Shown in pieces: positions 11,464 through 30,177 of a stretch of 49,908 bases of DNA. The translations under genes were made by a program, and so were the position numbers. The DNA is from Patescibacteria group bacterium (GTDB taxonomy: Bacteria; Patescibacteriota; Microgenomatia; UBA1400; PJMF01). Position 1 is the first letter of the stretch, and each line of letters opens with the position of its first letter. The notes under the pieces were generated by a model. It did not search any database. It had not been told where the DNA came from and saw nothing but the letters and a program-made list of their open reading frames with translations. Location: assembly GCA_019454415.1 (NCBI GenBank), contig JACFOI010000001.1, forward strand, positions 60,147 through 110,054. The letters are read 5' to 3'.

Positions 11464-11499
11464 TATTGCCTCAATACCTCTTGATGTAACGCCTCTAAC

Positions 11500-12414
11500 T
11501 TATGTCTGCTTAGACAGAAAGTACTCTACGGTCTTTTTTAAACCTTCCTCAATCTGAGTTCGGGCAGTCCAGCCTAAAACTTGAGTGGCTTTGGAAGAGT
11601 CGGCAACTAATACCAGAGGATCCCCTGGCCGTTCGGGGAAGTTGCGGACGTTGGCTTTTTTGCCCATCAACTGTTCCAGCATCTGGATGACTTGTCTGAC
11701 TTCGGTTGGGTGATTAGTGGAAAGATTGAGATAGTGATACTTTTGTGGCTGTTGCTGAGCCAAGTTGAGAGACTGAAGATGAGCTTCCACCACATCGGTA
11801 ATATAGATAAAGTCTCGTTGGTGCTGGCCGTTACCCCAAACTGTGACCTCTTGACCGCTTTGAATCTGTTCAATAAAGCGAGGAATGGCGTGAGACTCAG
11901 GCTGATGGTGTTCTTCAGGTCCGTACAGATTAAAGTAGCGAAGGCCGATTCCGGTCATTTTGTAGGACGCTACATATGAGCTGACGAGTGCTTCCATTGC
12001 CAACTTGGTCATGCCATAGGGGTTAATCGGCAGAGTTCGATCATCTTCTAAGATTGGAACTCGAAGAGGCTCTCCATACACGGCCGCGCTAGAAGAGAAA
12101 ATAAAGGTGGGAACCTGATTTTGACGCATTGCTTCCAGCACTGAGACAGTCCCTGAGATATTCACGTCCACAAACTTCTGGGGAAACTTGACTGACTCCC
12201 CCGCTTCGATCAGTGCAGCTAGATGAAAAACTACGTCGGCGTCCCGAATCTCCACCAACATCCGTTCAGTGTCACAGATGTCGGCAATGACCGTGTCTAC
12301 TTCCGGATTTGGTCGTAGGTCGATATTTTTGACGGTATGTCCGGCTGCTAACAGCGCCCGACAGAGATGATGTCCTAAGAAGCCAGACCCACCAGTAACA
12401 ATAACTCTTGCCAT
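11500..12414 (-). CDS. NAD-dependent sugar epimerase/dehydratase (GalE-like)
   Basis: This 304-residue short-chain dehydrogenase/reductase acts on nucleotide sugars. It shows the NAD motif GGSGFLG (8-14), the FHLAALIEAGES block, SSSAAVYG with the active-site serine (107-109) and the catalytic pair Y133/K137 in NPYGMTK. The region HQRDFIYITDVVEAH is the conserved block of extended SDRs. It is probably a UDP-glucose or UDP-N-acetylhexosamine 4-epimerase, but the exact substrate cannot be assigned. The ATG at 12414 follows a strong TAGGAGAG motif, which sets the start. The Shine-Dalgarno overlaps the stop of the upstream gene, eight bases away. Confidence 0.9.
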   Translation of the reverse strand: MARVIVTGGSGFLGHHLCRALLAAGHTVKNIDLRPNPEVDTVIADICDTERMLVEIRDADVVFHLAALIEAGESVKFPQKFVDVNISGTVSVLEAMRQNQVPTFIFSSSAAVYGEPLRVPILEDDRTLPINPYGMTKLAMEALVSSYVASYKMTGIGLRYFNLYGPEEHHQPESHAIPRFIEQIQSGQEVTVWGNGQHQRDFIYITDVVEAHLQSLNLAQQQPQKYHYLNLSTNHPTEVRQVIQMLEQLMGKKANVRNFPERPGDPLVLVADSSKATQVLGWTARTQIEEGLKKTVEYFLSKQT

Positions 12415-12422
12415 GATCTCTC

Positions 12423-13658
12423 CTAACTTAACCAATATCCTTGTATGAACAAGACAGTATTCACTACTAAACTCAAGATAAAGATACCTAAAACTATACT
12501 ACGCAGTCGCGGACGCGCCGCCAGCATCTCGATCAACAGTAAGTATATCGGAAAACAGACCAAGAGATAGCGTGGCATACTCGAGAAGGTGCCGGTAAAA
12601 GTAGGAAGAAAAAATGCTCCGAGTGCAAAAACAACATACGATAACCGAACCCTCCAGGCCGAGATGAATAACCCAACTAGACCCAAGCTCCCAGCAAGAA
12701 ACTCCAATGCTGAGGAGTAGTAACGAAGTGTCAACGGATCAAGCGTCAGCAGAATCTTGATCGACCGCCAGAGCACTACTGGATAGATCACCAAACCTTC
12801 TGTTCTACCCGCTCCGAACTCACTCTGAACGTGCAAGAAGTAGAGAGGATCACCAAATGTTCGCGCGAGGTAGATCATGTAGAGCACTGTGCCCAGTCCG
12901 CCCACTCCTATCAGGACGAGCTGTCGCCAGGAGCTGCTCAGAAAGCTGGTCAGCTGGGTAACTACACTCTTCGCGACCTGTTTTCCTCCCTGCTGCTCGC
13001 GCCACTGTAGCCAGGTTTCTAACGTCAACGCTGGTAGCAAGAATACGCCGACGATTCTGCTGGCTGTAGCGATCAAGACGAAAACAGCACACCAGATCCA
13101 TCGTCGCCGGCGAGCTGCCAAAAATGCGCCGATCACAGCAGCCAGAAAGATCGACTCAGTGTAAAGTGCCCCAAAAAAGAGAGAGGTGGGAAAGGCCAGC
13201 AGCAAGAGGACACCAAGCCAGGTCTTTGGTTTGCTCAAAAAACTTTTCAAAAAAACATACCAAAGTACCAGGCACAACAGCATTGCGCCGTTAGTAACAA
13301 TTAGTCCTACCAACAAAGTATTGAGGTGACCTCCGGTCAGGAGATAAAGACTATGCAAAATAATCAACGGTAGAAAAGGAAAGAATGCTTGAATGAGTCC
13401 GGTACCGAGATACCCTTTTTCGGCAATAGTCAGGTAGTGCACGCCATCAAAGTTTGCCCAACTGTAAAGCCATTGAGGAAGATGGTACTGAGTCAGGATG
13501 GCGTCAGCATACGGGAAGCTGGGTTCGTAAGGCAGAAAAGACGGGGCAAAAAATCCGACTACAAACAAAGCTACCCGCCAAACCAGGAACAGACAAAACA
13601 GCTGGAGGAGTTCAGTCCAGGATAGGTCCAAGAAAGTAGCCAGTTTTGAGTTACTCAT
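12423..13658 (-). CDS. PIG-V-like GT-C mannosyltransferase
   Basis: This 411-residue membrane protein resembles prokaryotic relatives of PIG-V (GPI mannosyltransferase II, GT76). The first outer loop has WANFDGVHYLTIAEKGYL followed by FFPFLPLI, the family's WD..WYL.IA..GY pattern with the catalytic-position Asp kept. ALYTESIFLA and TASRIVGVFLLP are further conserved blocks. About ten helices follow. It probably uses polyprenyl-phosphate-mannose on the outer face. The frame is open upstream; I choose the ATG at 13658 because it overlaps the previous gene's stop by eight bases and starts a normal N-terminus. It lies within the 20632-10171 operon. Confidence 0.85.
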   Translation of the reverse strand: MSNSKLATFLDLSWTELLQLFCLFLVWRVALFVVGFFAPSFLPYEPSFPYADAILTQYHLPQWLYSWANFDGVHYLTIAEKGYLGTGLIQAFFPFLPLIILHSLYLLTGGHLNTLLVGLIVTNGAMLLCLVLWYVFLKSFLSKPKTWLGVLLLLAFPTSLFFGALYTESIFLAAVIGAFLAARRRRWIWCAVFVLIATASRIVGVFLLPALTLETWLQWREQQGGKQVAKSVVTQLTSFLSSSWRQLVLIGVGGLGTVLYMIYLARTFGDPLYFLHVQSEFGAGRTEGLVIYPVVLWRSIKILLTLDPLTLRYYSSALEFLAGSLGLVGLFISAWRVRLSYVVFALGAFFLPTFTGTFSSMPRYLLVCFPIYLLLIEMLAARPRLRSIVLGIFILSLVVNTVLFIQGYWLS

Positions 13659-15411
13659 ATGTTTGTCGAGTTTTCCGGAACAGCTGAACATAGAGCCACC
13701 AGCATAAACCACCCACGACCAAAGCTACTGTGAAAGTACTAATCGTGTTCCCGATAAATCTAGGCGGGGTAAACTGGGTAAACTCAGTCTTTACTTCGTA
13801 TACGCCGGGGTCAAGCTGGTAGGCAATCCGGCCACCAATACTCTCGTTATTTAGATAGGAGACTAAGCGGAAGCTATTTCCACTGGTGACTGTAGTTTCC
13901 CAACCGGGGAAGTACATCGTTGGCTCTACAACTGTCACCGGCGTCTCCGCTGTAACAGAGTATGTTCTACTTGAGCCTCTCCAAGTGTGAACACTGATGG
14001 CTCCTTCACCCGCTTCAATGGCTGCCGTCGGCTGCCAGTCGGCAAAGTTTTGGAAAGTGAATGACTGAGGTAAGTTCTCGTTGCTGGTCGTAGTGCTCTG
14101 TTCAAAAAGCTCGTACTCAATTGGCTGTTTATTGAGATATCCAATCGGAGTCATCCGTAGTCCGACGATCAGCTGAATACAGAGTGCTAAAGAAAGCAAC
14201 ACCGTTTGCCAGCGCACTCCCTTTTGGACGACCCAGGCAATCAGCACTGCATTGGTAATGATGGAAAATGCTCCCAGTCTCCATGGAAACTGAATGAAGC
14301 GCGTAAGTGGAATTGCCTGCCACACCGGGGCAGTCGCTGAAAGCTGAAAAAGAGTAAGTCCCAAACTCGCCAGAAAGAAGATGATCACTACTTGGTCGAG
14401 CATTCGGCGTGCTTGCCGTTGCCCCCACAATGCTGCCAACATCCAGCCAGTGACAAGGATGACAGCCAGCCACTGCCCCCACCCTAAAGCGAATGAAAGC
14501 GAGTCAACGGCACCGGTGTAAGAGTAACCAAACTGGAGGGGGCCAGTGAGTAACTGGTGAAAGGTGGGAAACTGTTGTAAGTATTGAGCCGAGAGCGAGC
14601 TTCCACTGACTATGATCTCGGACTGTTCAGCTAACGCCGGGATCCAGAACCAGACTGAAAGTCCCAGCCCGATCAGGAACGCTCCCACCACTTTGAGCAG
14701 GTTGGGTTTAGTAGGCCAGATTCTCCAAACAGCAACTAACAGCAGTAGCGGCGTGCCGAATAAGACGCTGACGTTGTGTGAAAGGAAGAAAGCTCCGAGT
14801 AGTATTCCTCCCCAGAGTGTCTGAGCTGAGAAAAGAAACTGGATCCAGCTGATTGGAACGTTCAGGGTGTGCTCTACTTCCCCGTTTCTTTTTTGCCTAA
14901 CACTCTCTGCCCAGACTAACCACCATACTATTCCAGCAAGGGCGAGTACCTCGCCAATACTGCCACGGTAGATAACTGTTTGGAGCAGATAAGGTGAAAC
15001 AGCCACACTGGTGGTTGCCAGTGTCCGGGCCCAGGGATGAAATCTAAGTAGCCGGAGCCACTGCCAGACACCCAGTAAAAGCAGCGTCGTCGCAGCCGTT
15101 ACGATAATTTTGAACGTCAGTTGATACGGTGTTTTTACGATTGAGAAGGGAACCGAAAGCAAGTTGGGCAAAGGGTAGTTGTAGTTGAAGACGGGGTACC
15201 CGTAGCGATGGAAAAGATTTGGTGCAAAGCGCGGCAAGATCTGTCCCTCCCGCAAGGCAACTTTGTAGTTGGCAAATCTGGCCAGATGGTTCTCACCGTC
15301 GTGGGTAATTGGTACACCCGACCGCAGATAAACACGGCAAGATACTAAGGCCAACAGAAGGCACAACAATACAGGAAACAATTGGCTAAGTGAAACGCGC
15401 GGTAGTCTCAT
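13651..15411 (-). CDS. PTPS-related GT-C-like membrane protein
   Basis: This 586-residue integral membrane protein belongs to the group annotated as 6-pyruvoyl-tetrahydropterin synthase-related. That name is historical; it does not look like a pterin enzyme. The diagnostic first loop is present: PITHDGENHLARF, then ILPRFAPNLFHRYGYPVFNY. About ten helices follow, and a beta-rich extracytoplasmic region (about 430-550) precedes a last helix near 555-575. Members are thought to be GT-C-type glycosyltransferases. It overlaps the upstream GT4 gene by ATGA and the downstream PIG-V-like gene by eight bases, so all are co-translated. A second member lies at 33441-35156. Confidence 0.8.
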   Translation of the reverse strand: MRLPRVSLSQLFPVLLCLLLALVSCRVYLRSGVPITHDGENHLARFANYKVALREGQILPRFAPNLFHRYGYPVFNYNYPLPNLLSVPFSIVKTPYQLTFKIIVTAATTLLLLGVWQWLRLLRFHPWARTLATTSVAVSPYLLQTVIYRGSIGEVLALAGIVWWLVWAESVRQKRNGEVEHTLNVPISWIQFLFSAQTLWGGILLGAFFLSHNVSVLFGTPLLLLVAVWRIWPTKPNLLKVVGAFLIGLGLSVWFWIPALAEQSEIIVSGSSLSAQYLQQFPTFHQLLTGPLQFGYSYTGAVDSLSFALGWGQWLAVILVTGWMLAALWGQRQARRMLDQVVIIFFLASLGLTLFQLSATAPVWQAIPLTRFIQFPWRLGAFSIITNAVLIAWVVQKGVRWQTVLLSLALCIQLIVGLRMTPIGYLNKQPIEYELFEQSTTTSNENLPQSFTFQNFADWQPTAAIEAGEGAISVHTWRGSSRTYSVTAETPVTVVEPTMYFPGWETTVTSGNSFRLVSYLNNESIGGRIAYQLDPGVYEVKTEFTQFTPPRFIGNTISTFTVALVVGGLCWWLYVQLFRKTRQTYE

Positions 15412-16496
15412 GAGAGATTCAGGACTTCTCGATAGACGGCGACTGTTTCAGCAGCAACTTTGGTCCACGAAAACTCCTGACTCCAAGTATACGCAGCTTT
15501 TACGACCTCTTGGCGATGAGTTTTCGTCCAGTTCACGATGGTGTTTACGCCTTCAGCAAAGCCTTCGGCCTCAGGTGGCACCAGGATAGCGTGCTCACCG
15601 GCAACTTCTTTGAGAGAAGAGTTGTCCGAGGCAACGACCGGACATTTTGCCTGCATTGCCTCTAACACGGGCAAACCAAATCCCTCGTAGAGTGACGGCT
15701 GGACATAGGCAACAGATCCGGAGTAAATGGCAGCCAGGGTTTCCACGGCATCTACTCCCACCTCCGTGATGAAGTGAACTCGATCAGCCACATCACTAAG
15801 CGCGATCTGTGCCTCAATCCATCTCCACTCTGGGATTTCCTGGGGGACAAAGTTCCTGCCCACACAGACCAAGTGGATCTCCTCAGGGATAAACTTAAGC
15901 ATCTTGATCAATTGAGGAATGTTCTTGTTGTAGTTGATGTCACCGACATAGAGCACGTACTTTTCGGGCAGGTGGAGTGCTTGGGAGACTTCCTGCTGAG
16001 TTCGCTCTGATTGAGGGGTAATTGCCGGTGATGCTGCGAGATAGATAGGATGCACCAGGCCGGGTTTGATCTTGAGATACTTAACGATATCAGCTTCAGA
16101 TGACTTGGAGTCTGTAATCACCGCGTCCACACTTTGCAGGGCAAAGACCTGCTTGTAAAAACGGAGCTTCCCCTTTCTGCCCGGCTTGTAGTACTCAGGG
16201 AACTTTAAGGGAATAACGTCATGGACAGTGACAACAGTTTTAAACTTCCGCAGCATCGGCAAGCTGGAAAAGAACAAGTCAAAAAACGGATAGTGGATCA
16301 AGGTCGTTTTTGGATCATATCCAGTAGCGCTTTTACGGAAACGGCGGACGTCTTCTTTACTCTGGATCGGGATGACTGTCACGTCTTCCCGCTTCTCCAA
16401 AGCTTCCTGCAATAGTCGGGTATAGGTGCCTATTCCACGGACCTGGCTGCCAGTATGAAGTGGTGAGGTATCAAGGAGAACGGTGATCTTGTTCAT
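15408..16496 (-). CDS. GT4 family glycosyltransferase
   Basis: This 362-residue cytosolic enzyme has the GT-B fold. The N-terminal domain begins with LLDTSPLHTGSQVRGIGTY, the glycine-rich acceptor loop. The second domain starts near YVGDINYNKNI, and the donor-binding EX7E motif is in YEGFGLPVLEAM near residue 270. It resembles bacterial mannosyltransferases acting on GDP-mannose; GDP-mannose is also the substrate of the Gmd encoded in this window. Sequence in this frame is open further upstream, but the N-terminus at the ATG at 16496 is the natural one. That start lies 26 bases inside the upstream GT2 gene, and the gene ends in an ATGA overlap with the next. Confidence 0.9.
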   Translation of the reverse strand: MNKITVLLDTSPLHTGSQVRGIGTYTRLLQEALEKREDVTVIPIQSKEDVRRFRKSATGYDPKTTLIHYPFFDLFFSSLPMLRKFKTVVTVHDVIPLKFPEYYKPGRKGKLRFYKQVFALQSVDAVITDSKSSEADIVKYLKIKPGLVHPIYLAASPAITPQSERTQQEVSQALHLPEKYVLYVGDINYNKNIPQLIKMLKFIPEEIHLVCVGRNFVPQEIPEWRWIEAQIALSDVADRVHFITEVGVDAVETLAAIYSGSVAYVQPSLYEGFGLPVLEAMQAKCPVVASDNSSLKEVAGEHAILVPPEAEGFAEGVNTIVNWTKTHRQEVVKAAYTWSQEFSWTKVAAETVAVYREVLNLS

Positions 16497-17256
16497 AGTG
16501 TTCGCGCAGTTTAATGTAGGCGACCGGAAAATGGAGGCCGCTGAACAGCGCAAAGAGAAATCCGGCAAAGCCATCCACGAATCCCTTATGTCTAATATAG
16601 AGTGAACAAAACGTGGTGAGCGGTTTCCAGAAATAGTATGAGAAAGCCATACCTAAACTGGGTTTCTTTTTAGCATCGTAAAGTTTCTGGGCCGTGAAGC
16701 TGGTGTAAGTGTTAAACTTCCGCAGATACTCGGAAAAGCTCGGGTTGCTGTAGTGAAGAAAGTGCCCCTCCGCCCAGCCTACTTCGCCATCGACTTCCAT
16801 TTGCTCATGGACATCTTTTTGCGGGAGTCTGGCCTTTCCTTTTTGGTAGAGACGAATCACTGGGTCTGGATACTGCCCGCCCTTTTGCAGGAAACGGCCA
16901 AAAAATAAGTTTTTTCGCCTCACCCACCATGCTGAAGGAAGCTGTTCGCCGCCAAGAAGGCGTTGGTGGGTTTCTTGAATGAACGCGGCAAGTTGCTCGT
17001 CAACGATCTCGTCAGCGTCAAGTTGGAGGACTAACTCCCCTTTGGCCTTATCCATGGCCATCTGTTTGTTGATATGAAAGTTATTCTTATTGGTGGTGGA
17101 GTAAACTTTGGCACCTAGTTTTTTAGCCAACTCCACCGTCTTATCCGTAGACTCACCGTCAACGATAATAATCTCGTCAGCAAACTTTTTGACGGAAGCG
17201 AGGCAGCTCTCGATATTTTTCTGTTCATTATGGGTGGCTAAAACGACGGAGATCAT
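16471..17256 (-). CDS. GT2 glycosyltransferase, WaaE/LgtF-like
   Basis: This 261-residue protein has a GT-A fold with VVLATHNEQKNI, IIIVDGESTDKTVE and the DxD-type motif LQLDADEIVD. The C-terminal part has KDVHEQMEV and GHFLHYSNPSF, as in the WaaE/KdtX group that transfers glucose or heptose in core oligosaccharide synthesis. A hydrophobic patch near 225-250 may be a membrane-association hairpin. The ATG at 17256 overlaps the previous stop by ATGA and gives a typical N-terminus; the frame is open for 14 codons upstream. Three related proteins (27297-28208, 29210-30118 and, more distantly, 28216-29184) lie in the neighbouring operon. Confidence 0.88.
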   Translation of the reverse strand: MISVVLATHNEQKNIESCLASVKKFADEIIIVDGESTDKTVELAKKLGAKVYSTTNKNNFHINKQMAMDKAKGELVLQLDADEIVDEQLAAFIQETHQRLLGGEQLPSAWWVRRKNLFFGRFLQKGGQYPDPVIRLYQKGKARLPQKDVHEQMEVDGEVGWAEGHFLHYSNPSFSEYLRKFNTYTSFTAQKLYDAKKKPSLGMAFSYYFWKPLTTFCSLYIRHKGFVDGFAGFLFALFSGLHFPVAYIKLREHYEQDHRSP

Positions 17257-18899
17257 AAGTTTTGATCGGTAATCCAACGGTTGGTATACGGGTCCCACTC
17301 AATTAAGTGTGTATCTTCAGGGACACGGTCGTTCCGGTTCACGATAAACCGATACCTTCCTACTCGATATCCATACTTCAAACCTATTCTATCAGGCAGG
17401 TGGTGGTTTATTGTAGAGAAGAACTCTTCGGGCGGTATCTTGAGGTCCCAAGCAACTTCAGTGTACAAAAAACCGTCCGGGTCAACGATTGCAACTTGAT
17501 CAGGACTAGACCCCAATCTCTCCTCCATCTTTTGTACCTGGGTTCCTAAGCCAGCCTTTAGGATCTCGGCGCTTTGTTTGGGATAGGCTGAGAAGTAAGC
17601 AAAGTAGTAGCGATGAAGCTCGTTGCCGATGCCGAACAAGAACAACAGCACGAAGAAGACCTGCAAGGGATACCTGTAGTCACTCTCTATCGAAACCAGC
17701 TTCCACATCCACTCGATTGCCACCCCTGAGAATGTACAGAGCAGAAAGAAAAAGAAGAGACTCCTGGTAGCGTGGGGTGAGTCTACTGTGATCACGGAAG
17801 GAATCAATGACGTAAGCAGCAAGAAGAGCAAGGTTAGAGCAGTTAGGCGTGAGGCGTGATTGGTCTTTGGAGCCAGCATCACCCAAACGAGACGGCCAAT
17901 TCCCACCAATGCCAGAAGGTAGGTGGCAATAAAGAGATGTCCAATATTTGGGACGTTATGCCAGGGATGTCCCCCACCCTTTTGGATAAGAAACTCAGGG
18001 CTGAAAGACTTCCAGTAGTTCTGAAGGATGACCTTTCCAAAGAAAACATATCGATTTCCCAGTACTTTTTGAGCTATGCCGGAAAAGGAGTTGCGGTAGT
18101 CAACAGATTGTTGCCAGAGAGTTTCGTCGCTAAAGACGGTAATACCACTTTTCTGCTGACTAATAGATGAAAAAAGGAAAAGTCCGGCAGCGAAAATCAC
18201 AAGAGTGCCTGCAAACGGCAAGAGCCACCCCCGCCACTGACGGACTCCCCGGTCAATCACAAGGGCAAGGGCCACAAACGGTAGTAAGAGAAGCGGAGTG
18301 TTGTAGGTGAAGATCGCCAGCAAACACAACAACAAAGCAATGATGTCTAACTTTTGTCGGTTGCCTTTATCCTGAGTGAGCGAGAAGAAAAGGGTTACGG
18401 CAGTGGCAAAAAATAACAACGCGACATTCGCCTCCCATGCCATCCGAGAATAGAAAAAGAAAACCGGTTGAAGAGCCAGCGTGACCGCCACGATCAAACA
18501 ACTGATTGGATGTAAATTGAGTACGCGTCGGGCAAAAAAGTATCCGACTGCTACTAATAAAGTCCCGGCCAAGGCGGAAGGTAAACGAACTGCAAAGTCA
18601 TTGGCACCAAAGACCTTGAAAAAGGCCACTAATAGCATCGGGTAGCCAGGCAGTTTATAGTCACCGAACGACTCCAAGCTGACTGGCCAGCTTCTTCCCC
18701 ACTCGTCTTTGCCGGTTTTTTCCAGCAAGTAGGCGTTATACGCTAGCGCGGCCTCATCTCTATTGAGAGTGCTGGGGAGCGTCGCAAGTTCCGTGAGACG
18801 GATGAATGCAGCAAAAATCAGGATAGCTGTCAGAAGAATCGGGATCAGCGACTGGAGGTTCCAATGGAATGCGGTTTTTTTCTTTTGGTGAGTTTTCAT
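17253..18899 (-). CDS. GT39/ArnT-like GT-C glycosyltransferase
   Basis: This 548-residue membrane enzyme starts with a helix at 18-36 and then the outer loop LNRDEAALAYNAYLL with the acidic pair D48/E49. The conserved SFGDYKLPGY follows at about 77-86. About eleven further helices precede an extracytoplasmic C-terminal segment. PMT-type enzymes use the acidic pair with a polyprenyl-phosphate-sugar donor. It shares the DEAA..TGKD..G..SFGDYK signature with three other proteins in this window (18896-20632, 21945-23714, 23711-26209), which marks a local paralogue family. The gene overlaps both neighbours by ATGA. Sugar and acceptor are unknown. Confidence 0.87.
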   Translation of the reverse strand: MKTHQKKKTAFHWNLQSLIPILLTAILIFAAFIRLTELATLPSTLNRDEAALAYNAYLLEKTGKDEWGRSWPVSLESFGDYKLPGYPMLLVAFFKVFGANDFAVRLPSALAGTLLVAVGYFFARRVLNLHPISCLIVAVTLALQPVFFFYSRMAWEANVALLFFATAVTLFFSLTQDKGNRQKLDIIALLLCLLAIFTYNTPLLLLPFVALALVIDRGVRQWRGWLLPFAGTLVIFAAGLFLFSSISQQKSGITVFSDETLWQQSVDYRNSFSGIAQKVLGNRYVFFGKVILQNYWKSFSPEFLIQKGGGHPWHNVPNIGHLFIATYLLALVGIGRLVWVMLAPKTNHASRLTALTLLFLLLTSLIPSVITVDSPHATRSLFFFFLLCTFSGVAIEWMWKLVSIESDYRYPLQVFFVLLFLFGIGNELHRYYFAYFSAYPKQSAEILKAGLGTQVQKMEERLGSSPDQVAIVDPDGFLYTEVAWDLKIPPEEFFSTINHHLPDRIGLKYGYRVGRYRFIVNRNDRVPEDTHLIEWDPYTNRWITDQNL

Positions 18900-20632
18900 T
18901 GGCTAAGTGTAAGTGTAGCAATTCCAAAGCGAGGATTGCCAACTTCATCCGGAACTATCTCTAACTGGCATCGATACGATCTGACTGTTTCGCAGTACTT
19001 AGCCAGCACATCATACTGTCCTGCCACCGCTACTTTTTTACCGGCCTGAAGTTGGTCCGTAAGCTGGTTTTCGTCTGTGAGGTGAAACTCTACGCCAGCA
19101 AAGTAACTGGGGAGCGTTGAGCCGACAAACTTGTAGTCCACAGTTTTCCAGCCCACAAATTCATCTCCTTTATAGGGGCCATATGCCATCAGCCATAGAT
19201 AAAAACGATCATCAAAGGGTTGAATAAAGACGATCTCTCTCTGTGCAACTTGTTGAAAGACTTGCTGGGCAAGTGGCTTGTACCCACTTTGCCAGTCAGG
19301 TGCCGAGAGCTTTGGATAGGCTGCAGTATAAAACCACCAGAACTGTAAAAATGAAAACGCCAGCGCACTCAGTAGTCCTACCCTCAGTAGAGGATGACGA
19401 AGCTGCACCCACCACCAGCTCAAACCCACTCCGATCACGACGCTAAGAGGAACTAAAGCATTAAGAGACCGCAGCGCATGGGGAGTATTTTCTGGAACAG
19501 ATGCTGGCAACAGTGCAACCAGCCACCAACCAGCCAGGAACAAGGCTAGCAAAGGATGGCGTTTGAACAGTATGATCCAGCCCGTCAGAAATGCAGGAGC
19601 TAGTATCCATATAAACAGGCCAAACTCACCAGTTCCATGTCGAAGGTTTGGGTCGCCAGTCAGGAAGAGAAAGCTTGGCGAAGTATTGTCACTGTAATTT
19701 TTGAGCAAATCTCGTGCCTGTAACCACAGACGGTGGTAGAACAACCGATCAACAACAGTGTTTCCTGCTAACTCTCGATAGAGGTTACTTTGGAGCGGAT
19801 ATTGGTCATTATTCAGTACCGACTGAGTCCCTAACCGGAAACGATCGGCGTCCTTTGCTAAAGGTGAGCGTAGCAACGGAATGAGTAGTACCAGGAAAAG
19901 TAAGAGCACACCAACAGAGCGAAAAGCGACGGGACTGACTGTTCTCAAGCTTTTTGAAAAGGTGAGTTTTCGGCCCAAATATTTTTGGCAGAGAAAAAGA
20001 AGAACCAGCCCGATAAAAACGGCTATCCAGACAAAACGAACTGAATAATAGGTATAAGTAGCGAGCGCTCCCACTGGCGCAGCCAGAAAAAGCAGCCAAT
20101 CTTTCTGCTTCTGGAGTCCCCATGTCGCAAGTAAGATCGAGCTGGCCAGTAACATCTGTCCCAGATGCCCCTCAAATGCCGTTCGTGAGAACATTAGTGA
20201 CCACGGTGTGAAGGCGACAACTGCCATAGTCGAGAGCTGAACTAAGCCGAGAGAGGCCGAGTCGTACTTGGAGCGAGTCCCGAGTTGAAGCAGAGCACGA
20301 GCCAACAGACCGGCTACCACCACAGTCAGCACTCCTGCCAAAGCAGAAGGCAATCGCAACGCAAACTCACTGAGTCCTAACAGCCTGCTACTAGCCAAAG
20401 CTGCCCAGATATAGACCGGTAACTTGTAGTCACCATAAGATGGGTAGATCAACTGGTACCAGACACGACCGTGTGCATCATGACCGGTCGCTAAAACCGC
20501 CTTAATGTCGACCAGCATGGCTGCTTCATCCCAATACAGGGAGACGGGCAGCATTCCTAACTGCCACACCCGGAGGCCAGTGGCCAGGACAACAATCCCT
20601 AGAAAGATAGCCCAGAACCAGCGGCGTGACAT
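18896..20632 (-). CDS. GT39/ArnT-like GT-C glycosyltransferase, first gene of the operon
   Basis: This 578-residue membrane protein begins MSRRWFWAIF with a helix at about 5-22. The loop SLYWDEAAMLVDI carries the catalytic-type pair D35/E36, and PSYGDYKLPVYIW matches its paralogues. The frame stays open for 87 codons upstream with ATGs at 20650, 20653 and 20659. I choose 20632 because the palindromic -10 at 20641-20650 ends eight bases before it, and because the upstream stretch is antisense to the divergent gene and polar. It heads the operon running to 10171 and probably adds a sugar from a lipid-linked donor on the outer face. Confidence 0.85.
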   Translation of the reverse strand: MSRRWFWAIFLGIVVLATGLRVWQLGMLPVSLYWDEAAMLVDIKAVLATGHDAHGRVWYQLIYPSYGDYKLPVYIWAALASSRLLGLSEFALRLPSALAGVLTVVVAGLLARALLQLGTRSKYDSASLGLVQLSTMAVVAFTPWSLMFSRTAFEGHLGQMLLASSILLATWGLQKQKDWLLFLAAPVGALATYTYYSVRFVWIAVFIGLVLLFLCQKYLGRKLTFSKSLRTVSPVAFRSVGVLLLFLVLLIPLLRSPLAKDADRFRLGTQSVLNNDQYPLQSNLYRELAGNTVVDRLFYHRLWLQARDLLKNYSDNTSPSFLFLTGDPNLRHGTGEFGLFIWILAPAFLTGWIILFKRHPLLALFLAGWWLVALLPASVPENTPHALRSLNALVPLSVVIGVGLSWWWVQLRHPLLRVGLLSALAFSFLQFWWFYTAAYPKLSAPDWQSGYKPLAQQVFQQVAQREIVFIQPFDDRFYLWLMAYGPYKGDEFVGWKTVDYKFVGSTLPSYFAGVEFHLTDENQLTDQLQAGKKVAVAGQYDVLAKYCETVRSYRCQLEIVPDEVGNPRFGIATLTLSQ

Positions 20633-20640
20633 ACGAGAAG

Positions 20641-20650
20641 ATGATATCAT
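20641..20650. promoter_or_regulatory. palindromic extended -10 shared by two divergent genes
   Basis: ATGATATCAT is a perfect ten-base palindrome. On each strand it supplies TGATATCAT, an extended -10 (TGA plus TATCAT). The plus-strand copy ends nine bases before ATG 20660 and the minus-strand copy eight bases before ATG 20632. A single symmetric element would thus start two nearly leaderless divergent transcripts. No convincing -35 elements were found. Confidence 0.5.
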
Positions 20651-20659
20651 CATTCGCAT

Positions 20660-22051
20660 ATGCAGCAGAGCAGTTCTTTTCTTGATTGGCTTCACGTAAA
20701 AAAGCTTTGGATCGTAACTGCACTTTTTATTATTTCGCGGCTTTTTATCTGGCTGAATCCGCCACCTGAGTTTACCGAAATTATCTATAGTTACATGCCA
20801 TATGCCCACCTGTGGGCCAGCGGAACTCGGCCGTACCTGGATCAGTGGTATGAGTACCCGCCGGCCACGATTCCCCTTTTCTATCTTCCCCATTTGATTG
20901 ATATGGCGACGCGTTTTCAGCCGCTACACTTGAACTACTCACAGGCGTATCGGGGCGAGCTGTTGATCGTTGATACCTTACTGTTTATCGGGATTGTCCT
21001 AACGCTGAGGAAACTGAAAGTGGATAACAAATCTTTCTGGTTGGCTGTGGGTGCCTACCTTGCCTTGACTACCAAAGCCCATCACTTCATCTATGACACT
21101 ATGGACCTGACTTTTGCTGCGGCTATCTGCTTGGGTGTGTTTGGACCATTCTTGCTCGAAAAGCGAGCTGGAATGTTGGCTGGTTGGGTGGGTTTTTTCC
21201 TGGCTACGGCGTTGAAGTATGTGAATGCTCCGCTAGCGGTAGTCTATGCAGCCGTAGATCGGAAACGTTGGCTCCAGTCGTTTGTGGCCGGTGTGATCGG
21301 GTTTTTACTGATTTGGAGTGTGCCGCTCTTTCTCTATCGATCTTCAATTCAGGTGAGTCTGGTCTATCAACAGATCAGAGGGATCCAGATTGACACTGCG
21401 ACCGCGATGATCTTGCGTACTGCTGATCGCTTCACTCATACAGAACAAGTCATTGAGGTATATAAAAACTATGAGATCGCTGGGCCGCTGACTGATCAGG
21501 CGAAGAAAGTTTCGGCAGTGGTTTTCCCCGCTTCTATTGCTCTTTTTCTTCTTTTTGCACTGTATCAAGTCTTCCACTCTCCAGTCTCAACACCTCATCA
21601 GCGCTACGTTTTAAGTAGCCACTTTACCTTGGGCTATGTGCTCGTTTTCATGGTGTTTGCCAAAGTGCTTTCAACGCCGTTTTTGTTGTGGCACTTGCCT
21701 CTTTTGGCGCTGTATCCCTTTACGAGCTTCAAACGTCGGATTCACTATGCTGTGCTGTCGTTTTTTGTCATTTTTAGCTCAATGACCAAGATTCCTAACA
21801 CAGAGATGGGCTTTTTTACTTTACCGATCTTAGTAGGTTGGGTGCGGACGCTTAGCTTTGTAGCGATGCTGATCCTGTGGTTCCAGGACTCCTTTCGTCT
21901 TCACACCGTCCATGGAGTCAAGAACCTAGAAGAAGATCAAGGAGTTATTGAACGGGTGTTGCCTGATTCACTCGAGAAATCACCCAAACGACGTTCCCCT
22001 TCAGGTCCTTCACCTCATCCAGCTTCTCGACGGAAGAAGAGTCACGGCTGA
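20660..22051 (+). CDS. GT87-like (DUF2029) GT-C glycosyltransferase
   Basis: This 463-residue membrane protein has the early pattern [19 protein letters not shown] then [14 protein letters not shown], the A.G..PY..W.YEYPP signature of DUF2029/GT87 alpha-mannosyltransferases that use polyprenyl-phosphate-mannose. About ten helices end near residue 405. The final 55 residues are polar and basic ([18 protein letters not shown]). The last 107 bases of the gene overlap the convergent GT39-like gene, so the tail may be an extension into sequence constrained by that gene. It has a partner only in the divergent operon, and no other plus-strand gene follows. Confidence 0.75.
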
Positions 22052-23714
22052 GCTGCTCATAGCCTTTGAGCGAGCTGGCCACAATACCGGGTTTAGCTTC
22101 GTTGACGGAGTTCACAAAAGAGATGTTCTCGAACTGCAAGAACTCAGCCTGATCCTTGAGGGCGGTCGCTTCGGCAGCCTGAACGTCAGCAGGTGATGTT
22201 TTGGTATAAAACCAATAGTACATGGCTGGCCGACCATACTCCCGGGTGATGAAGACTTCCTGGTCAGGATAGGTGGTCTTCAGTTGGTCAACTTTTGCTA
22301 CCATCTGCTTGTATCCATACTGCCAGTCAGCCTGACTCATGACAGGATAGATCTTCATGTAGTACCGCCAAGTGCCCAACCAATAGAGGGCAATCAGAGA
22401 AAGAGCTCCTGCGGCGATCACCCCGGCAGATTTAGGAGGGAATGTCTTTCTGAGCCACAAAAGGCTCTGCCAAAGACCCAAGCTTACCAACACCAGCAAA
22501 ACGGGTGCAGCAGGCAGAGTCCGAAGCGCGTGAGGGTAAGCCTTAGTAATAGAAGCGGGTAAGAGGCCAACCACTAACCACCAGCTGAGAAGAAAAACAT
22601 ACGGACGGGCCTCTTTTTCCCGCCATGCCAGAGAGGCTACAGTCACTATCCCGATCACCAACCAGAGTGCATCGGGGAGGCTTAAGATGCCTGTATACCC
22701 TGTGGAGTGACGTGGGTTTAGATCTCCTGACAGAAAAAGGAAGTCTAGCGAAAAATGGCTGGCAAAAGCTACCGCAACCTGATGTCCTAAGATGAGATAC
22801 CGGTGAGTAAATAAACGAGACAGCAACGTGTTCCCCGTAGTTTCGCGCAGGCGATTGCTTTCGATCACGTACTGTCCATCTCCAGTGATGCTCGTTTCGG
22901 CGAAACGTTGCTGAGTAGTAACGTCCCGACTGCTGATCAAAATTGGCAGGACGATGAGCAGCAAGATGACTCCCGGTAGCAGGAGAGATTTAACTCTGGT
23001 TATTAACTTTTTCAGACCGTTCTTACGGAACGCCTGTAAGGGCGATACCCACCAGTACGTGAGAGCTACCAACAAAGCAGGCGCAATGACCCGCGTCGCA
23101 TGATAAACATACATAGACAGACCAGCCAGCACAAAACAGCACAAGATTTTGATGAAGCGTCGCTGTGTTGGTTGCTCTACCACAGCCGACAGGCCCACGA
23201 TGACGGACCACAGAAGTAACGACGATGCAACGTTAACTTCCCATCCCCCTCTCGAAAACTGAAGCAACCAGGGAGAAATTGCAGCAACCCCCATGCCAAC
23301 GAGTTGAGCCAGCCTCAATTGAGGCAACGTCCGACCGACCCAGATTTTTTCGGTCAACATTCTGGCTAACACACCTACCCCGATCACCGTGGCTATTCCA
23401 AACAGAGCGCTCGGAAGTCGAACTGCCCACTCACTCAATCCCAGCAGCCAAATAAATGGCACAATCAGATAAAAATAGCCACTAGGTTTGTAGTCACCAA
23501 ATGAGGAAAAAGCTACAATTGGGAACGCATTCCCATGATGATCTTTGCCTGTGAGAGCTATTGAGTAAGCATCATACCCCAGTGCTGCTTCTTCCCAATA
23601 CAGTGCGGGCGGAACAGTATCAAGTTGGTACAGGCGAAGAAATGCTGCACAGCCTACAATCAGGATGCTAAGGAGTAAAAAGTACTTTCGCGACAGTAAA
23701 ATATTCTTTTTCAT
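21945..23714 (-). CDS. GT39/ArnT-like GT-C glycosyltransferase with an EE acidic pair
   Basis: This 589-residue membrane protein is a close paralogue of the three other SFGDYK-type enzymes in the window: a helix at 11-28, [20 protein letters not shown], then [13 protein letters not shown]. The position that is Asp in the siblings is Glu (E41), giving EE in place of DE. The charge is kept, so activity is possible but altered geometry is likely. About eleven helices and a 150-residue outer domain follow. It is last in the operon that begins at 30118 and overlaps the fusion gene upstream by ATGA. Its 3-prime end overlaps the convergent GT87-like gene. Confidence 0.85.
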
Positions 23715-26209
23715 GGAGTCTTGACGATCACAAACCGGACCTTGCCGTCACTGCCGGTTACCGTATGCGTGGCTAACTCAGGGTCAATCTGGTCAGGGGT
23801 AGCAACAATCACAGCGTTAGAACGTGTCAAGTCACCTTTGCTGACCACGTCACTGAAGAGATACTTAATCAGCGAGCCATTATGATAGTCATAGACGCTA
23901 GTCCGACGCCCAATAAGGGTGTAGATGTAGGGCTGTTGATAACTTGTCGTAAATAGGATTGTATCCGCGTCAGGTTCCAGCTTTTTTACATACTCAACAG
24001 TCTCTAGGTACCCGTCGATAAAATCATCTGCCGACGCTTGAGCGAAAACCGTATAGTAATGATTTAGATATGAAACTGTCAGGAAAAGTTGTAGCAGGAG
24101 TGTCATTCCCAAGATAGCTGGGGCAAGCAACCGACCCTGGAAGGCTTCAGCGATTCGTTGCCATCCAAGTACCGCCAGCAGAATAAACCCCGGTAAAGCA
24201 AGGAGCATTCGATTGCTATGAGGGACGTCTACACCGATAGCTGCAGGAAGGATGCCGATCAGCACCCAACTTACTCCGAAAAAGAAGAGACGACTGGGAA
24301 CGATCGCCCGTTGATTCAGCCAGCGAGTCAATGCCCCGACAAGTGCTACTCCCACTAAGAACAACTCACCTAATAGGAGAATCCCGAACTGTCCGTCACC
24401 ATGTCTGAGCGTGTCAACTTTCCCCAGCACTAAAAACCGAGGATCAAAGTGGACTAGGAAGTGACTAAACAGCTTCCCGATAATCTCAATCGGATGAAGT
24501 TTCAGGCGAAAGATGCTGGCCTGTTGAAAACGATCTCCTCCATTCCCGAAAAAAGTATCCAGTAAAAGTGGGGTAATGAAAACAGCGAGTAAGAAGCACC
24601 AAGTAGCAGCTCCTTGCCAGTGTTTAAGAAGTCGCTTTTTGAAAAACAGGGCAAGCGTGACCACCAACAATGGAACAACGATCTTGCTGCTGTGGTAGGT
24701 ATAGAGTGAGCAGGCAAAGGCCAGCGCCGCAAAAAAGGCTACGGCACCTCTGAAAAGTCGTTGAAGTGCTGACTGAGTTGGTGAGTATTGATGTGTCAGT
24801 AAGTACAGCACTGCGACTACCCCCCAGATCAAAAAGTTGAGTGCCATGCCGCTCTCAAACCCAATCCGGGAGAAGTGAATATGCCAAGGTGAAACTGCCA
24901 TCAGAGCACCAGCTAGAAGCGCTGCAGAGCTGGCTTCCAAAACAGGGAACGGCCTCGGCACTTTCTTAGGGATCCATGCTTCCCAGGTGAGCTTCACCAG
25001 TGCCATCATCCCGATCACGGCAGCAATACCGGATAAGGCAAAAGGCAAACGAACAGCAAGCAACGTCAGGCCAAATAGCCGAGTAAAACCACCCACAACA
25101 TAGATAGCCAACGGTGCCTTATAGTCACCAAATGACTTAAAAGAGATCGGCAGCTTTCGCAGCCACTCGTCTCTGCCGGTGGTAGCAACAGACCAACCGT
25201 TATACCCAATCGCAGCTTCGTCCCAGGTCATGCCGTGAGGAACCTCAGCCAGTTGATAGAGCCGCAGCGCTGAGGCCACCAAAATAATTAAAGCTGCCAT
25301 GACTAACTGCAGCTGCAAGGGGGATAGCACCGGTCCCTTGATCCACCAATAAGGCTGCCAAAGCAGATACTGGAGTTTTTGCTGCCAGGTTCCGTTTTTG
25401 ACCACAAATGTCTGGGCATGCTGCCAGCTCATCTTGATCATCTTTTTTTGGCCAAAAGCTGTCGTATTCGTTGACTCGTGGTTGTGGTCAACTTCAGCAT
25501 TAGCTTCAAAAAGAACTTTCCAGCCGCGTTTTCTGGCACGAAAAGACAAATCAACATCTTCCCAGTAAGCCGGATAGTAGTCAGAGTCAAAACCACCTAA
25601 CTCGATCCATTTTTGACGATCAAACATGCCGCTGCCACCACTCACCCAGGCAGTCGGACCTGACTCAAAAGAGTCCGCCCGGTTATGACTGAACATGCCC
25701 CGCGCAAAGCGCAGCACGTTTTTGCCACCCTGAACATCTGTCCCATCCTCTGTCTTTTCATGCTCAAGACAGCCGACCGCAAAGACAGTCGGATCATCAA
25801 AGTTTTTGACCAGCTCTTGAATAGTCAGAGGATGTGGAGAGACATCCGTGTTAATTAAAAAGATAAGCGGCCTGGAAGCCCGATCCACAGCCAAGTTACA
25901 GCTCATCGCAAAGCGTTGATTGTGCTCGTTCTTGAGCAAAACAACATCACCTTTTTTTGACCCCTCTCTCCATGTTCCCTCACACATGCAGCCACGAAAA
26001 GAGATCTTGGTGAAGTAGTTTTTTCTTTCTTCGGTGCAGTCTTTTGTGGAGAAGTAGGTTTGTAGCCACTCCCAACTTTCGTCGGTGCTATTGTCGTCGA
26101 TCACAATCAGCTCGTCTCCGGCGCGCATCGCTTCTAAAACCGCGGGTAAGTGCTTGGCTAAAAGGTGTTTGCCGTTGTAGTTGGGGATAACAACAGAGAC
26201 TGCAGACAT
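23711..26209 (-). CDS. GT2-GT39 fusion: cytosolic glycosyltransferase joined to a GT-C membrane enzyme
   Basis: This 832-residue protein joins two enzymes. Residues 1-260 are a GT2 domain: VVIPNYNGKHLL, IVIDDNSTDESW, the DxD-like FLINTDVSP and GGSGMFDRQK with YWEDVDLSFR. Residues 300-832 are a GT39-like membrane domain: a helix at 300-317, MTWDEAAIGYNGW (D330/E331), then SFGDYKAP, about eleven helices and a terminal outer domain. Residues 53-88 look like an insertion within the GT2 domain (C58, C74, C76). The gene lies two bases after the GT4 gene and overlaps the next by ATGA. The fusion suggests that one glycan is extended on both membrane faces, but this is inference. Confidence 0.88.
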   Translation of the reverse strand: MSAVSVVIPNYNGKHLLAKHLPAVLEAMRAGDELIVIDDNSTDESWEWLQTYFSTKDCTEERKNYFTKISFRGCMCEGTWREGSKKGDVVLLKNEHNQRFAMSCNLAVDRASRPLIFLINTDVSPHPLTIQELVKNFDDPTVFAVGCLEHEKTEDGTDVQGGKNVLRFARGMFSHNRADSFESGPTAWVSGGSGMFDRQKWIELGGFDSDYYPAYWEDVDLSFRARKRGWKVLFEANAEVDHNHESTNTTAFGQKKMIKMSWQHAQTFVVKNGTWQQKLQYLLWQPYWWIKGPVLSPLQLQLVMAALIILVASALRLYQLAEVPHGMTWDEAAIGYNGWSVATTGRDEWLRKLPISFKSFGDYKAPLAIYVVGGFTRLFGLTLLAVRLPFALSGIAAVIGMMALVKLTWEAWIPKKVPRPFPVLEASSAALLAGALMAVSPWHIHFSRIGFESGMALNFLIWGVVAVLYLLTHQYSPTQSALQRLFRGAVAFFAALAFACSLYTYHSSKIVVPLLVVTLALFFKKRLLKHWQGAATWCFLLAVFITPLLLDTFFGNGGDRFQQASIFRLKLHPIEIIGKLFSHFLVHFDPRFLVLGKVDTLRHGDGQFGILLLGELFLVGVALVGALTRWLNQRAIVPSRLFFFGVSWVLIGILPAAIGVDVPHSNRMLLALPGFILLAVLGWQRIAEAFQGRLLAPAILGMTLLLQLFLTVSYLNHYYTVFAQASADDFIDGYLETVEYVKKLEPDADTILFTTSYQQPYIYTLIGRRTSVYDYHNGSLIKYLFSDVVSKGDLTRSNAVIVATPDQIDPELATHTVTGSDGKVRFVIVKTP

Positions 26210-26211
26210 AG

Positions 26212-27300
26212 CTACTTCCCTATCATCTCATAGAGCGTTTGTGAAAAGCGAGACTCGGAAAATTGGGCAGCCTGGTTTTTGATTGCCGTTTGCCAAGCTG
26301 GCCAGTCCCCTGGCTGTTTGAGCAGGTTACTGGTGATCCGACAACAGTCATCAATCGTTTGCCACTCAAGGGCTTGGAGTTGTTCACCCAGTACCTCCAC
26401 TTGCCCACCCTTTCCGACCACCACCGGAATGCAGCCGCTGGCCATGGCTTCGGCAGTGCTGATCCCAAAGTGCTCAACTTGTTCCGGATGTTCATCCTGA
26501 TTGACTTCAAAACCGGCGGCGTGCCAGTAGAGACTGGCTCGTCTGTACCAAGTTAGCAACTCCTGGCGATTGATCCGGGTATAAAACTCCACCGGTAGAC
26601 TTTTGGCGTACTGTTGGACTTCCGTCAAAAAGCTTTGATCCTCAACGCTGCCGATGAAGACCAGCTTCCATCCTTTCATCAACTCAGGTTCCTGATGAAG
26701 CAGTTGGGCAAATGCTTGGACCAGGATATCCTGACGTTTGCTGTGTAGTTGACGAAAAAAACGGCCGACGCTCAGAATAATCTTTTCTTTTTTATCCACT
26801 GCTTGAAAACAAGCTTGATCGATTGCTGGATAGTGAACGAACTGAATCTTGGTCTTCCACGCCCGTTCGACAATTCCTTTGGTGAAGGCAGAGTTAGCAT
26901 TCTTGATCTTCCAGTTCCTTAACTTGAACCTGTTGCCTAGGCCGTTTTGCGGATGAGTGTAAGGAACCTGAATGTGCAGGATATTTTTTTTGGCTGCGCT
27001 CAGAAACATACTGCCATCAGTGACTGCAATGCAGCAGTCGAACTTCCGGGTCCAGCGCAGTTTTTCGATGACGCTCCCATCGTGTAACGGAGTAGGAAGA
27101 AAGGAAATTTTTTCGAGTGAACGATGAAAAAAATCCTCGTAGCGAGCTACTTTCTCCAAAATTTCGGTGGGCTTGATCTCCCGCGGCAGCGCCACTGTCA
27201 CTTTATGATCCTGGGCCAGGATTGTGGCTACGTCAAAAAAGTACTTTTCGCCGCCGCCAAAGTGTTTCGGGACATAGGGTGAGTAGAGGCAGATCTTCAT
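26212..27300 (-). CDS. GT4 family glycosyltransferase (Alg11-like)
   Basis: This 362-residue GT-B enzyme begins LYSPYVPKHFGGGEKY, the glycine-rich N-terminal loop. The C-terminal domain has ILSVGRFFRQLHSKRQDIL (sugar-nucleotide-binding side) and EHFGISTAEAMASGCIPVV with the EX7E motif near 276-286. The EHFG form is common in Alg11-like and mannosyl GT4 proteins. A cytosolic mannosyltransferase of the lipid-linked oligosaccharide pathway is likely. The ATG overlaps the upstream stop by ATGA, and the next gene starts two bases after its stop, so it sits firmly in the operon from 30118. Confidence 0.9.
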   Translation of the reverse strand: MKICLYSPYVPKHFGGGEKYFFDVATILAQDHKVTVALPREIKPTEILEKVARYEDFFHRSLEKISFLPTPLHDGSVIEKLRWTRKFDCCIAVTDGSMFLSAAKKNILHIQVPYTHPQNGLGNRFKLRNWKIKNANSAFTKGIVERAWKTKIQFVHYPAIDQACFQAVDKKEKIILSVGRFFRQLHSKRQDILVQAFAQLLHQEPELMKGWKLVFIGSVEDQSFLTEVQQYAKSLPVEFYTRINRQELLTWYRRASLYWHAAGFEVNQDEHPEQVEHFGISTAEAMASGCIPVVVGKGGQVEVLGEQLQALEWQTIDDCCRITSNLLKQPGDWPAWQTAIKNQAAQFSESRFSQTLYEMIGK

Positions 27301-28208
27301 TCGTCCTCTGTCTTTTCAGGAACTTCTTGTTTAGGTGTTGGCGTTTCTTGGTCAGCATCTTCTGACTTAAACACCGGTGAAAGCTCGCTCAGGGAAGTCT
27401 TCTTCCACATCTTCATAAACTCCATCTCTTTAGTGTGGTACTTCTCTGTTAAAGAGGGCTGCTGCTGAAGCTCCCAGAGCTGGACATAGACCAGAAAGCG
27501 GTTCATCGCCTGGATGCCAGCTTCGATCAACCCTTCCATGCCATCTTTTCGACCTGACCATAAGATAGCTCTGCGGAAAAACTCCATAACCGTCTTTCGA
27601 AGCAGCGTCCACCCTGTCACCGGTGGAGTATTCGCTTCAAAAAGCAACTTTGCTTCAAGCGGAGTCCACATGGCAGTCTTGTATAACCCATCGATGGTGT
27701 TCCGGTGGGTCAGGTGGAACAGACTGGTATGCAGTCGAACAATCTCTCCCTCAAAAATGGGACTTTCGTGGATTTCACCCTTCCATCCGGCCAGGGCTTG
27801 CTTACGAAAGATGCGCTGAACAAACTCCTTTCCCCAGCCGCCATTGAGGAAGAACTTACCGTACATCATGTTCTGCCGATGCATCTCAAGTGCACTGGCA
27901 GTGGTGGTTTCAATCTGAACCAGGATCTCTTTGGCCAGTTGCGGTGTCACCCGTTCGTCCGCATCAATATAGAAGACCCAGTCTGTCTTGATGTGTTCCA
28001 GAGCAATATTTCGTCGGTCGGCAAAAGACTGGGCGTGGGTGGTAACCACCTTAGCCCCAAGGCGTTCTGCAATTTCAGCAGTCTGATCTTGAGAGTCGCT
28101 GTCTACGACTAAAATCTCAGTACACCAACGAAGTGTCTCAATGCAGTTGGCCACCATGAGCTCTTCATTTTTAGTGATGATAATCGCGGTGATGCTGGGC
28201 GAAGACAT
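27297..28208 (-). CDS. GT2 glycosyltransferase, WaaE-like, with acidic C-terminal tail
   Basis: This 303-residue protein has the GT-A motifs AIIITKNEELMVANCI, ILVVDSDSQDQT and FYIDADERVT, then GEIHESPIFEG and FHLTHRNTIDG, matching the WaaE/KdtX-like group. The last 25 residues are low-complexity and acidic (QETPTPKQEVPEKTEDE), which is unusual here and possibly a disordered tail. The start at 28208 is supported by AAGGAAG four bases upstream. The frame is open for 23 codons above it, but those overlap the end of the upstream gene. The stop overlaps the GT4 gene by ATGA. Confidence 0.88.
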   Translation of the reverse strand: MSSPSITAIIITKNEELMVANCIETLRWCTEILVVDSDSQDQTAEIAERLGAKVVTTHAQSFADRRNIALEHIKTDWVFYIDADERVTPQLAKEILVQIETTTASALEMHRQNMMYGKFFLNGGWGKEFVQRIFRKQALAGWKGEIHESPIFEGEIVRLHTSLFHLTHRNTIDGLYKTAMWTPLEAKLLFEANTPPVTGWTLLRKTVMEFFRRAILWSGRKDGMEGLIEAGIQAMNRFLVYVQLWELQQQPSLTEKYHTKEMEFMKMWKKTSLSELSPVFKSEDADQETPTPKQEVPEKTEDE

Positions 28209-28215
28209 AGCTTCC

Positions 28216-29184
28216 TTAATACACTGCTTGTTTTCCCATATGTCCCAAGAGCCAGTCAAGGGCGCCTCGACGAACATTGGTATTTCCCATCATTAACTTC
28301 TCTACAGCCAGTTTCAGAACCCGGAGATAGAACCAGACAAGCTTGCGCGTCTGAGAAAATTCATTTTTCTTGTCGCTGGATAAGAAGTGGTATTGAGCGT
28401 ACTTTAGAAAGAAGAAGAGTCTATTACGAGTTTGGTAGTACTGATGGGTGGGTGAGCCGGCACCACCAGACGATCCTGCATTCTTATGCCAAACTACGGA
28501 TTCAGGAACAAACCGTAGTTCAAAACCGGCTTGTTTGACGCGAAGGCTCCAGTCCACGTCTTCCAGATATAAAAAGTAGCGAGGATCAAGAGAGCCAGCG
28601 CGTTCAAGGACGCTCCGGGGGATCAGAATGCAGCAGCCAGTAGCAAACTCGGTCTCGGAGATATTATCAAACTGGCCACGATCAAGCTCGTCTACGCCTC
28701 GGTGGAATGCATCTAGATTCGCCCAGTCAATGCTGCCACCGGCAAACCACAACACATTACCCCGCTCAGCAGGTGTATAGCTTTTGAGATGGAACTCTCG
28801 TCCTGGGTAAAAATAAATCTTCGGAACAGCCATTCCCAACTTTGGTTCGGCTACGGCCGCAGCGACTAGCTTCTCCAGGAAGTCAGGCCTGACGGTGGTG
28901 TCATTATTCAGCAGTAGAAAGTAGTCTGGTTCCAGTTCCCGGAGCGCAACGGTAATGCCCAGGTTGTTTCCATTGGTGAAGCCCAGATTGGCGTCGCTGC
29001 GAATGAGCTTCGTCGTCTTGGACATGAGACGCTCAGGAATGTGAAGAGGATTTTTAGAGCCGTTATCCACAACATAGGTGTGAACGGTCAAGCCTTTATG
29101 CTTGATCTTACTTAGCGACTCCAGACACTCCAGAGTCTCTTCGTCTGTATTGAAGTGAACGATAATAATAGCAACCGATGTCAT
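28216..29184 (-). CDS. GT2 rhamnosyltransferase-like protein (WbbL type)
   Basis: This 322-residue cytosolic enzyme has AIIIVHFNTDEETLECL, TYVVDNGSKN, ANLGFTNGNN and the DxD-like FLLLNNDTTV. Further down are TGCCILIPRSVL and YFLYLEDVDWSLR, which together define WbbL-like rhamnosyltransferases. Because dTDP-L-rhamnose enzymes are encoded at 35414-37879, L-rhamnose is a reasonable donor, though not proven. The C-terminal 70 residues are a basic helical region that may bind the membrane surface. It lies 25 bases after the preceding GT2 gene and seven bases before the next. Confidence 0.88.
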   Translation of the reverse strand: MTSVAIIIVHFNTDEETLECLESLSKIKHKGLTVHTYVVDNGSKNPLHIPERLMSKTTKLIRSDANLGFTNGNNLGITVALRELEPDYFLLLNNDTTVRPDFLEKLVAAAVAEPKLGMAVPKIYFYPGREFHLKSYTPAERGNVLWFAGGSIDWANLDAFHRGVDELDRGQFDNISETEFATGCCILIPRSVLERAGSLDPRYFLYLEDVDWSLRVKQAGFELRFVPESVVWHKNAGSSGGAGSPTHQYYQTRNRLFFFLKYAQYHFLSSDKKNEFSQTRKLVWFYLRVLKLAVEKLMMGNTNVRRGALDWLLGHMGKQAVY

Positions 29185-29209
29185 AGACGCTTGATATATT
29201 CTACTCTTT

Positions 29210-30118: not shown

Positions 30119-30124
30119 AGATTC

Positions 30125-30133
30125 ATTCTAACA
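30125..30133 (-). promoter_or_regulatory. extended -10 before the minus-strand GT2 operon
   Basis: The minus strand reads TGTTAGAAT, that is TGn plus TAGAAT, ending six bases before ATG 30118. The expected transcription start is the A of the start codon. A CTGACA lies further upstream but only 13 bases from the hexamer, too close for a normal -35. Confidence 0.5.
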
Positions 30134-30142
30134 TCGCTCGAC

Positions 30143-30170: not shown

Positions 30171-30177
30171 AATCCGG

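Follow-up and report, generated by a model that had tools for sequence, protein, structure and literature searches.

Bidirectional promoters built around a symmetric -10 element have been described in bacteria by the Grainger and Wade groups (PMC12825309, PMC10268837). Their opposed hexamers have bases in common, they lie between divergent genes, a -35 element is not needed, and the two transcription starts fall at preferred separations of 10, 18 or 23 bp, with small variation (PMC12825309). Opposed polymerases cannot bind such a site together, and there is little competition between them at low basal activity (PMC12825309). Leaderless genes are the second relevant group. A TANNNT hexamer about 12 bp before the start codon is their published mark in bacteria, with a range of 8-14 bp counted from the hexamer A (PMC3160421), and they include mapped genes of M. 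tuberculosis (PMC3898074).

The locus analysed here resembles both groups. With the symmetric promoters it has in common the opposed hexamers with shared bases, the predicted geometry of the 23-bp class, the divergent gene pair and the dispensable -35 element. The E. coli examples are not described as leaderless (PMC12825309), whereas here the start codons lie at the predicted start sites. With the TANNNT-led leaderless genes it shares the hexamer, found 13 and 14 bp from the start codons when counted from its A and therefore inside the published range, and the lack of a Shine-Dalgarno sequence. Such genes usually have one -10 each, whereas one palindrome appears to serve two genes here. The M. 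tuberculosis pair prpD / Rv1129c is similar in that adjacent divergent genes both give leaderless mRNAs (mapped there, predicted here). However, 120 bp separate its two starts (1254630 and 1254510), which implies two separate promoters and no shared -10 (PMC3898074). In a limited literature search we did not find a shared -10 combined with two leaderless coding genes, and the literature searched contained only passing mentions of leaderless genes in Patescibacteria and almost nothing on transcription starts in the group. The locus appears to belong to an established type of two-way promoter, with no new mechanism involved, and to stand out only because both its mRNAs are apparently leaderless.

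The window is a stretch of 49,908 nucleotides on contig C16 of a 1.08-Mb patescibacterial genome in 40 contigs (G000), and positions below are those of the window. Two genes diverge from ATG codons at 20632 (minus strand) and 20660 (plus strand), leaving a gap of 27 bp (20633-20659). Within it, ATGATATCAT at 20641-20650 is a perfect palindrome, identical to its own reverse complement and nested within a palindrome of 12 bp, GATGATATCATC, at 20640-20651. Each strand reads TGATATCAT (plus, 20642-20650; minus, 20649 to 20641), an extended -10 with the hexamer TATCAT, and the central TA belongs to both hexamers (Table 1). The opposed -10 elements overlap in one near-symmetric sequence, as in the bidirectional promoters. 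On each strand the start codon is directly preceded by a TANNNT at the distance expected of a -10, with gaps of 8 bases to the minus ATG and 9 to the plus ATG, and no Shine-Dalgarno sequence occurs in the 20 nt upstream of either ATG. The sequence-only reading had described just such a self-complementary palindrome, with an extended -10 on each strand and ATGs eight and nine bases beyond it across 27 bases; both the sequence and the coordinates agree.

Table 1. Features of the divergent locus and its two genes (window coordinates)
Feature	Position	Strand	Basis or remark
Two overlapping extended -10 elements	plus hexamer TATCAT 20645-20650; minus hexamer TATCAT 20646-20641	both	direct sequence; identical in the congener (G001)
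Plus -10-to-start-codon stretch, 9 nt, without Shine-Dalgarno	20651..20659	+	same length in the congener
Minus -10-to-start-codon stretch, 8 nt, without Shine-Dalgarno	20633..20640	-	same length in the congener
Unchanged 15-nt block GATGATATCATCATT	20640..20654	.	alignment of G000 and G001
Alternative in-frame minus ATGs, which would turn the palindrome into codons	20650, 20653, 20659	-	no TANNNT or Shine-Dalgarno upstream
Plus gene, 463-aa multi-pass membrane-type protein, GT-C-like at best	20660..22051	+	71% identical orthologue in the congener
Minus gene, 578-aa PMT/GT-C-type membrane protein, most likely start ATG 20632	18896..20632	-	sub-threshold matches

Based on this arrangement, we propose that the 27-bp gap is probably a bidirectional sigma-70-type promoter with a single symmetric -10, from which both mRNAs would emerge leaderless or with leaders no longer than 3 nt. 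In this reading, RNA polymerase carrying the main sigma factor would engage the palindrome in either orientation, and the two extended -10 elements with their common central TA would match the 23-bp class of the bidirectional promoters described in the literature. Counting 7 bp from each -10, the usual distance, we infer starts at 20657 (plus) and 20634 (minus), 23 bp apart, which would give leaders of 2-3 nt. Slippage of the start site by 2-3 nt would remove these leaders altogether, with each transcript beginning on the A of its ATG and a separation of 28 bp. Promoter, both starts and both initiation codons would appear to fit in about 33 bp, and both mRNAs would be translated without a Shine-Dalgarno sequence. 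The palindromic -10 has no -35 element, and TATCAT is not the best -10 sequence; for these reasons promoter activity could be low.

The assignment of the starts bears directly on this proposal. For the plus gene, an in-frame TGA at 20642 leaves no earlier in-frame start. The minus gene could instead begin upstream, at one of the three alternative ATGs (Table 1), in which case the palindrome would be coding and the minus promoter would lie elsewhere or be replaced by read-through. The most distal of these ATGs stands back to back with that of the plus gene in the sequence CATATG (20657-20662). The frame is open in both the source genome and its congener (G001), all three ATGs are conserved there, and the short N-terminal extension is similar in the two (HMAMMISSSCM in one of them). 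Counter to this, the 20 nt before each alternative ATG lack both a TANNNT and a Shine-Dalgarno sequence, whereas 20632 alone has a TANNNT (gap 8), and two of the three changed codons in the extension alter the amino acid, unlike constrained coding sequence. In addition, the distance from the initial Met to the 'LR' motif of the first helix, judged by eye, is 18-25 residues in PMT homologues (L005, L007 and window 21945-23714). The motif lies 21 residues from 20632, which fits the homologues, and 30 from 20659. We regard an upstream start as unlikely and retain 20632 as the start of the minus gene.

Comparison with the congener, Patescibacteria group bacterium UBA924 (DBDU01000019.1; 71% protein identity; loci L002/L018), is informative. 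It keeps the gene pair, the palindrome and both spacings (8 and 9) exactly (CATACAAGATGATGATATCATCATTGCCATATG versus CATACGAGAAGATGATATCATCATTCGCATATG), and its palindrome is longer, at 16 bp compared to 12 bp. The gap is identical at 23 of 27 positions (85%), compared to an average of 61% across the syntenic block. By Fisher's test this exceeds the identity of the 200 flanking coding bases (62.5%, p=0.014) and of the two flanking genes (61.5%, p=0.007). Windows of 27 nt that are as similar or more so make up 5% of the syntenic block and are mostly coding. The conservation signal of the gap seems real but moderate. No relative other than UBA924 was found to keep the gene pair, so that the comparison is within the genus only. 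Beside the closest plus-gene orthologues in other genera, as grouped by the tree (G032 C4, G043 C37, G061), the divergent PMT partner is absent. In three further genomes (G034, G045, G035) a collinear relative lies beside PMT genes; the tree places these relatives in a different subfamily, and they are therefore no proof that this gene was inverted.

The same comparison bears on the idea that the promoter truly works one way only, with incidental symmetry on the other side and the minus gene transcribed by read-through from the upstream minus-strand array. The plus gene sits inside a long minus-strand glycosyltransferase array in which no convincing terminator was found. A plus promoter in another register is also conceivable (GTGACA-16-CATCAT, 20626-20653), with 9 of 12 bases matching the consensus. 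However, UBA924 has GAGGCA in place of the -35-like GTGACA but retains both TATCAT hexamers and both spacings, and both ATGs are without any other initiation signal. We consider a one-way promoter very unlikely and favor the two-way reading.

We made our own gene calls on stretches totalling 458 kb of the 1.08-Mb genome, which yielded 396 predicted genes, and scored TANNNT before the candidate ATGs of genes that head transcription units. The hexamer occurs at gaps of 6, 7 and 8 nt in 7.3%, 8.2% and 6.4% of cases, respectively, compared to about 2% at gaps 12-24, a peak of about four times background. At gaps 6-9 it precedes 57 of 155 unit-first genes versus 35 of 189 internal genes, and at control gaps 18-21 it precedes 17 of the 155. 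Of those 57 genes, 19 have a TG ahead of the hexamer. The genome carries a leaderless-gene promoter signal, and the gaps of 8 and 9 in the window pair lie at the long end of its 6-8 peak. In a smaller sample from UBA924 the signal is weaker (4.3%, 3.2% and 0.9% at gaps 6, 7 and 8). Shine-Dalgarno-like motifs are found in a minority of genes in the 458 kb (38/168 unit-first, 35/201 internal). Elsewhere in the window, at 30118-30178, a further divergent pair has a leaderless-type -10 before each gene, at gaps of 6 and 7, with separate promoters in a 59-bp gap.

A 27-bp gap that has to accommodate two -10 elements at leaderless distance leaves them no choice but to overlap and be partly symmetric. 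We asked how often the arrangement occurs by chance. Across the 457,640 27-mers of the 458 kb, 0.55% have a TANNNT at 6-9 nt from each end, and a palindrome of at least 10 bp is present as well in 0.022% (102). In 20,000 dinucleotide shuffles of the gap the corresponding rates were 0.65% and 0.09% (18). Given these rates and the 48 divergent pairs in the sample, it is unlikely that the palindromic arrangement arose by accident. Within the 1.08-Mb genome, TGATATCAT occurs at two places only, the palindrome itself (on both strands) and one other.

When divergent pairs were scanned, a second case emerged in the same genome (contig C24, L049:13049-13079), with the layout CAT-8-ATTATAAT-9-ATG. ATTATAAT is a perfect palindrome in which the hexamers overlap by four bases, and the gaps are again 8 and 9. 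The flanking genes, encoding a 368-aa Sua5-TsaE fusion (Pfam) and a short protein of 111 aa from the chosen start, are unrelated to the window pair, yet the design is alike. This pair is also kept in UBA924 (C29:33956-33986, CATGCTGACCAATTATAATACAGCAACGATG), with gaps once more of 8 and 9 and a conserved minus protein.

A search of 88 genomes of the order for the two fixed layouts returned 9 matches to that of the window pair (3 for a reversed control) and 14 to that of the second pair (8 for the control). By this control, about half of the matches across the order are chance. Among the 19 matches outside the source genome and UBA924, four (L057, L064, L070, L073) are flanked on each side by an open frame of 90 codons or more; judged by the N-termini, L070 is the clearest, with frames of 209 and 213 codons. 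The shared-palindrome design, as read from these layouts, is recurrent but rare. A divergent pair encoding a CCA-adding enzyme and RecJ (contig C14, L027:12765-12795) has adjacent opposed -10s in a 29-bp gap. We did not count it as a third case, as its -10s (ATGTTA-TTG-TACCGT) form no palindrome and the layout drifts in UBA924, where the gap measures 31 bp and the minus -10 lies at a shifted position.

The second pair also helps in judging a rival view, in which the palindrome serves chiefly to bind a dimeric regulator, as an operator, and is not a shared -10. Operators are common in divergent promoters, the inverted repeat is perfect over 12 bp (16 bp in UBA924), and matches to it are in mild excess (7 versus 1 for a reversed control). 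However, on either strand the palindrome reads as a -10 with the spacing of a leaderless gene, and the genome contains no second exact copy of the 12-mer. The six copies that differ at one position each overlap an open frame of 80 codons or more, which gives no hint of a regulon, and the second pair has the same layout around a different palindrome. A primary role as an operator seems highly improbable to us, and we continue to interpret the palindrome as a shared -10.

The surroundings suggest why a promoter would be required here. The plus gene stands alone on its strand amid a long minus-strand glycosyltransferase array (window 10171-30118) and must therefore have its own promoter. Its 3' end overlaps a convergent minus-strand gene (21945-23714) by 107 bp (21945-22051); with 137 bp of overlap in UBA924, a long convergent overlap is maintained in both genomes. 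The minus gene is first in its minus-strand glycosyltransferase array, which is probably restarted at 20632. Neighbouring genes encode glycosyltransferases, an epimerase and a polysaccharide-biosynthesis (flippase-type) protein. The minus protein itself scores 19.3 bits against PMT_2, below the cut-off of 26.1 (E=0.0014), and is likewise below the cut-off for TIGR03663 (E=4e-5), so that its PMT assignment stays sub-threshold; the adjacent gene at 17253-18899 is above the PMT cut-off (44.8 bits). For the plus protein, no Pfam, NCBIfam or PDB match was found, and hence none to a GT87 model. Of the family labels first proposed from the sequence, GT39-like is plausible for the minus protein, with its sub-threshold PMT_2 match, whereas GT87-like is unsupported for the plus protein.

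The central idea of the sequence-only reading, one palindromic -10 driving two divergent leaderless genes, gains support from the leaderless signal of the genome, from the second conserved pair and from the signal-less alternative minus starts. The check it proposed, whether palindrome and spacing persist in related gene pairs, gave a positive answer in UBA924, the one relative with the pair. Its suggestion that the arrangement couples the two genes fares less well, given the published expectation that a shared -10 holds polymerase in one orientation at a time (PMC12825309). We infer that one polymerase at a time would occupy the site, so that each binding event would yield one output or the other, and competition would be slight at a weak promoter. 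Any coupling is more likely to be mutual exclusion of RNA polymerase than co-activation.

Tentatively, and with somewhat more doubt than confidence, we suggest that the palindromic -10s of this lineage with start codons 8-9 bases away form a recurrent minimal divergent module, a compaction device with mutually exclusive outputs. Two primary 5' ends 23-28 bp apart are predicted, and base changes in the core should affect both genes. Since the design recurs in this genome and, probably, in a few others of the order, it lends itself to a survey across the phylum. Comparative sequence points to a symmetric -10 retained between two apparently leaderless coding genes in uncultured bacteria with reduced genomes. 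If such a module exists, bidirectional promoters and leaderless translation would be merged in one compaction device in this lineage of Patescibacteria.
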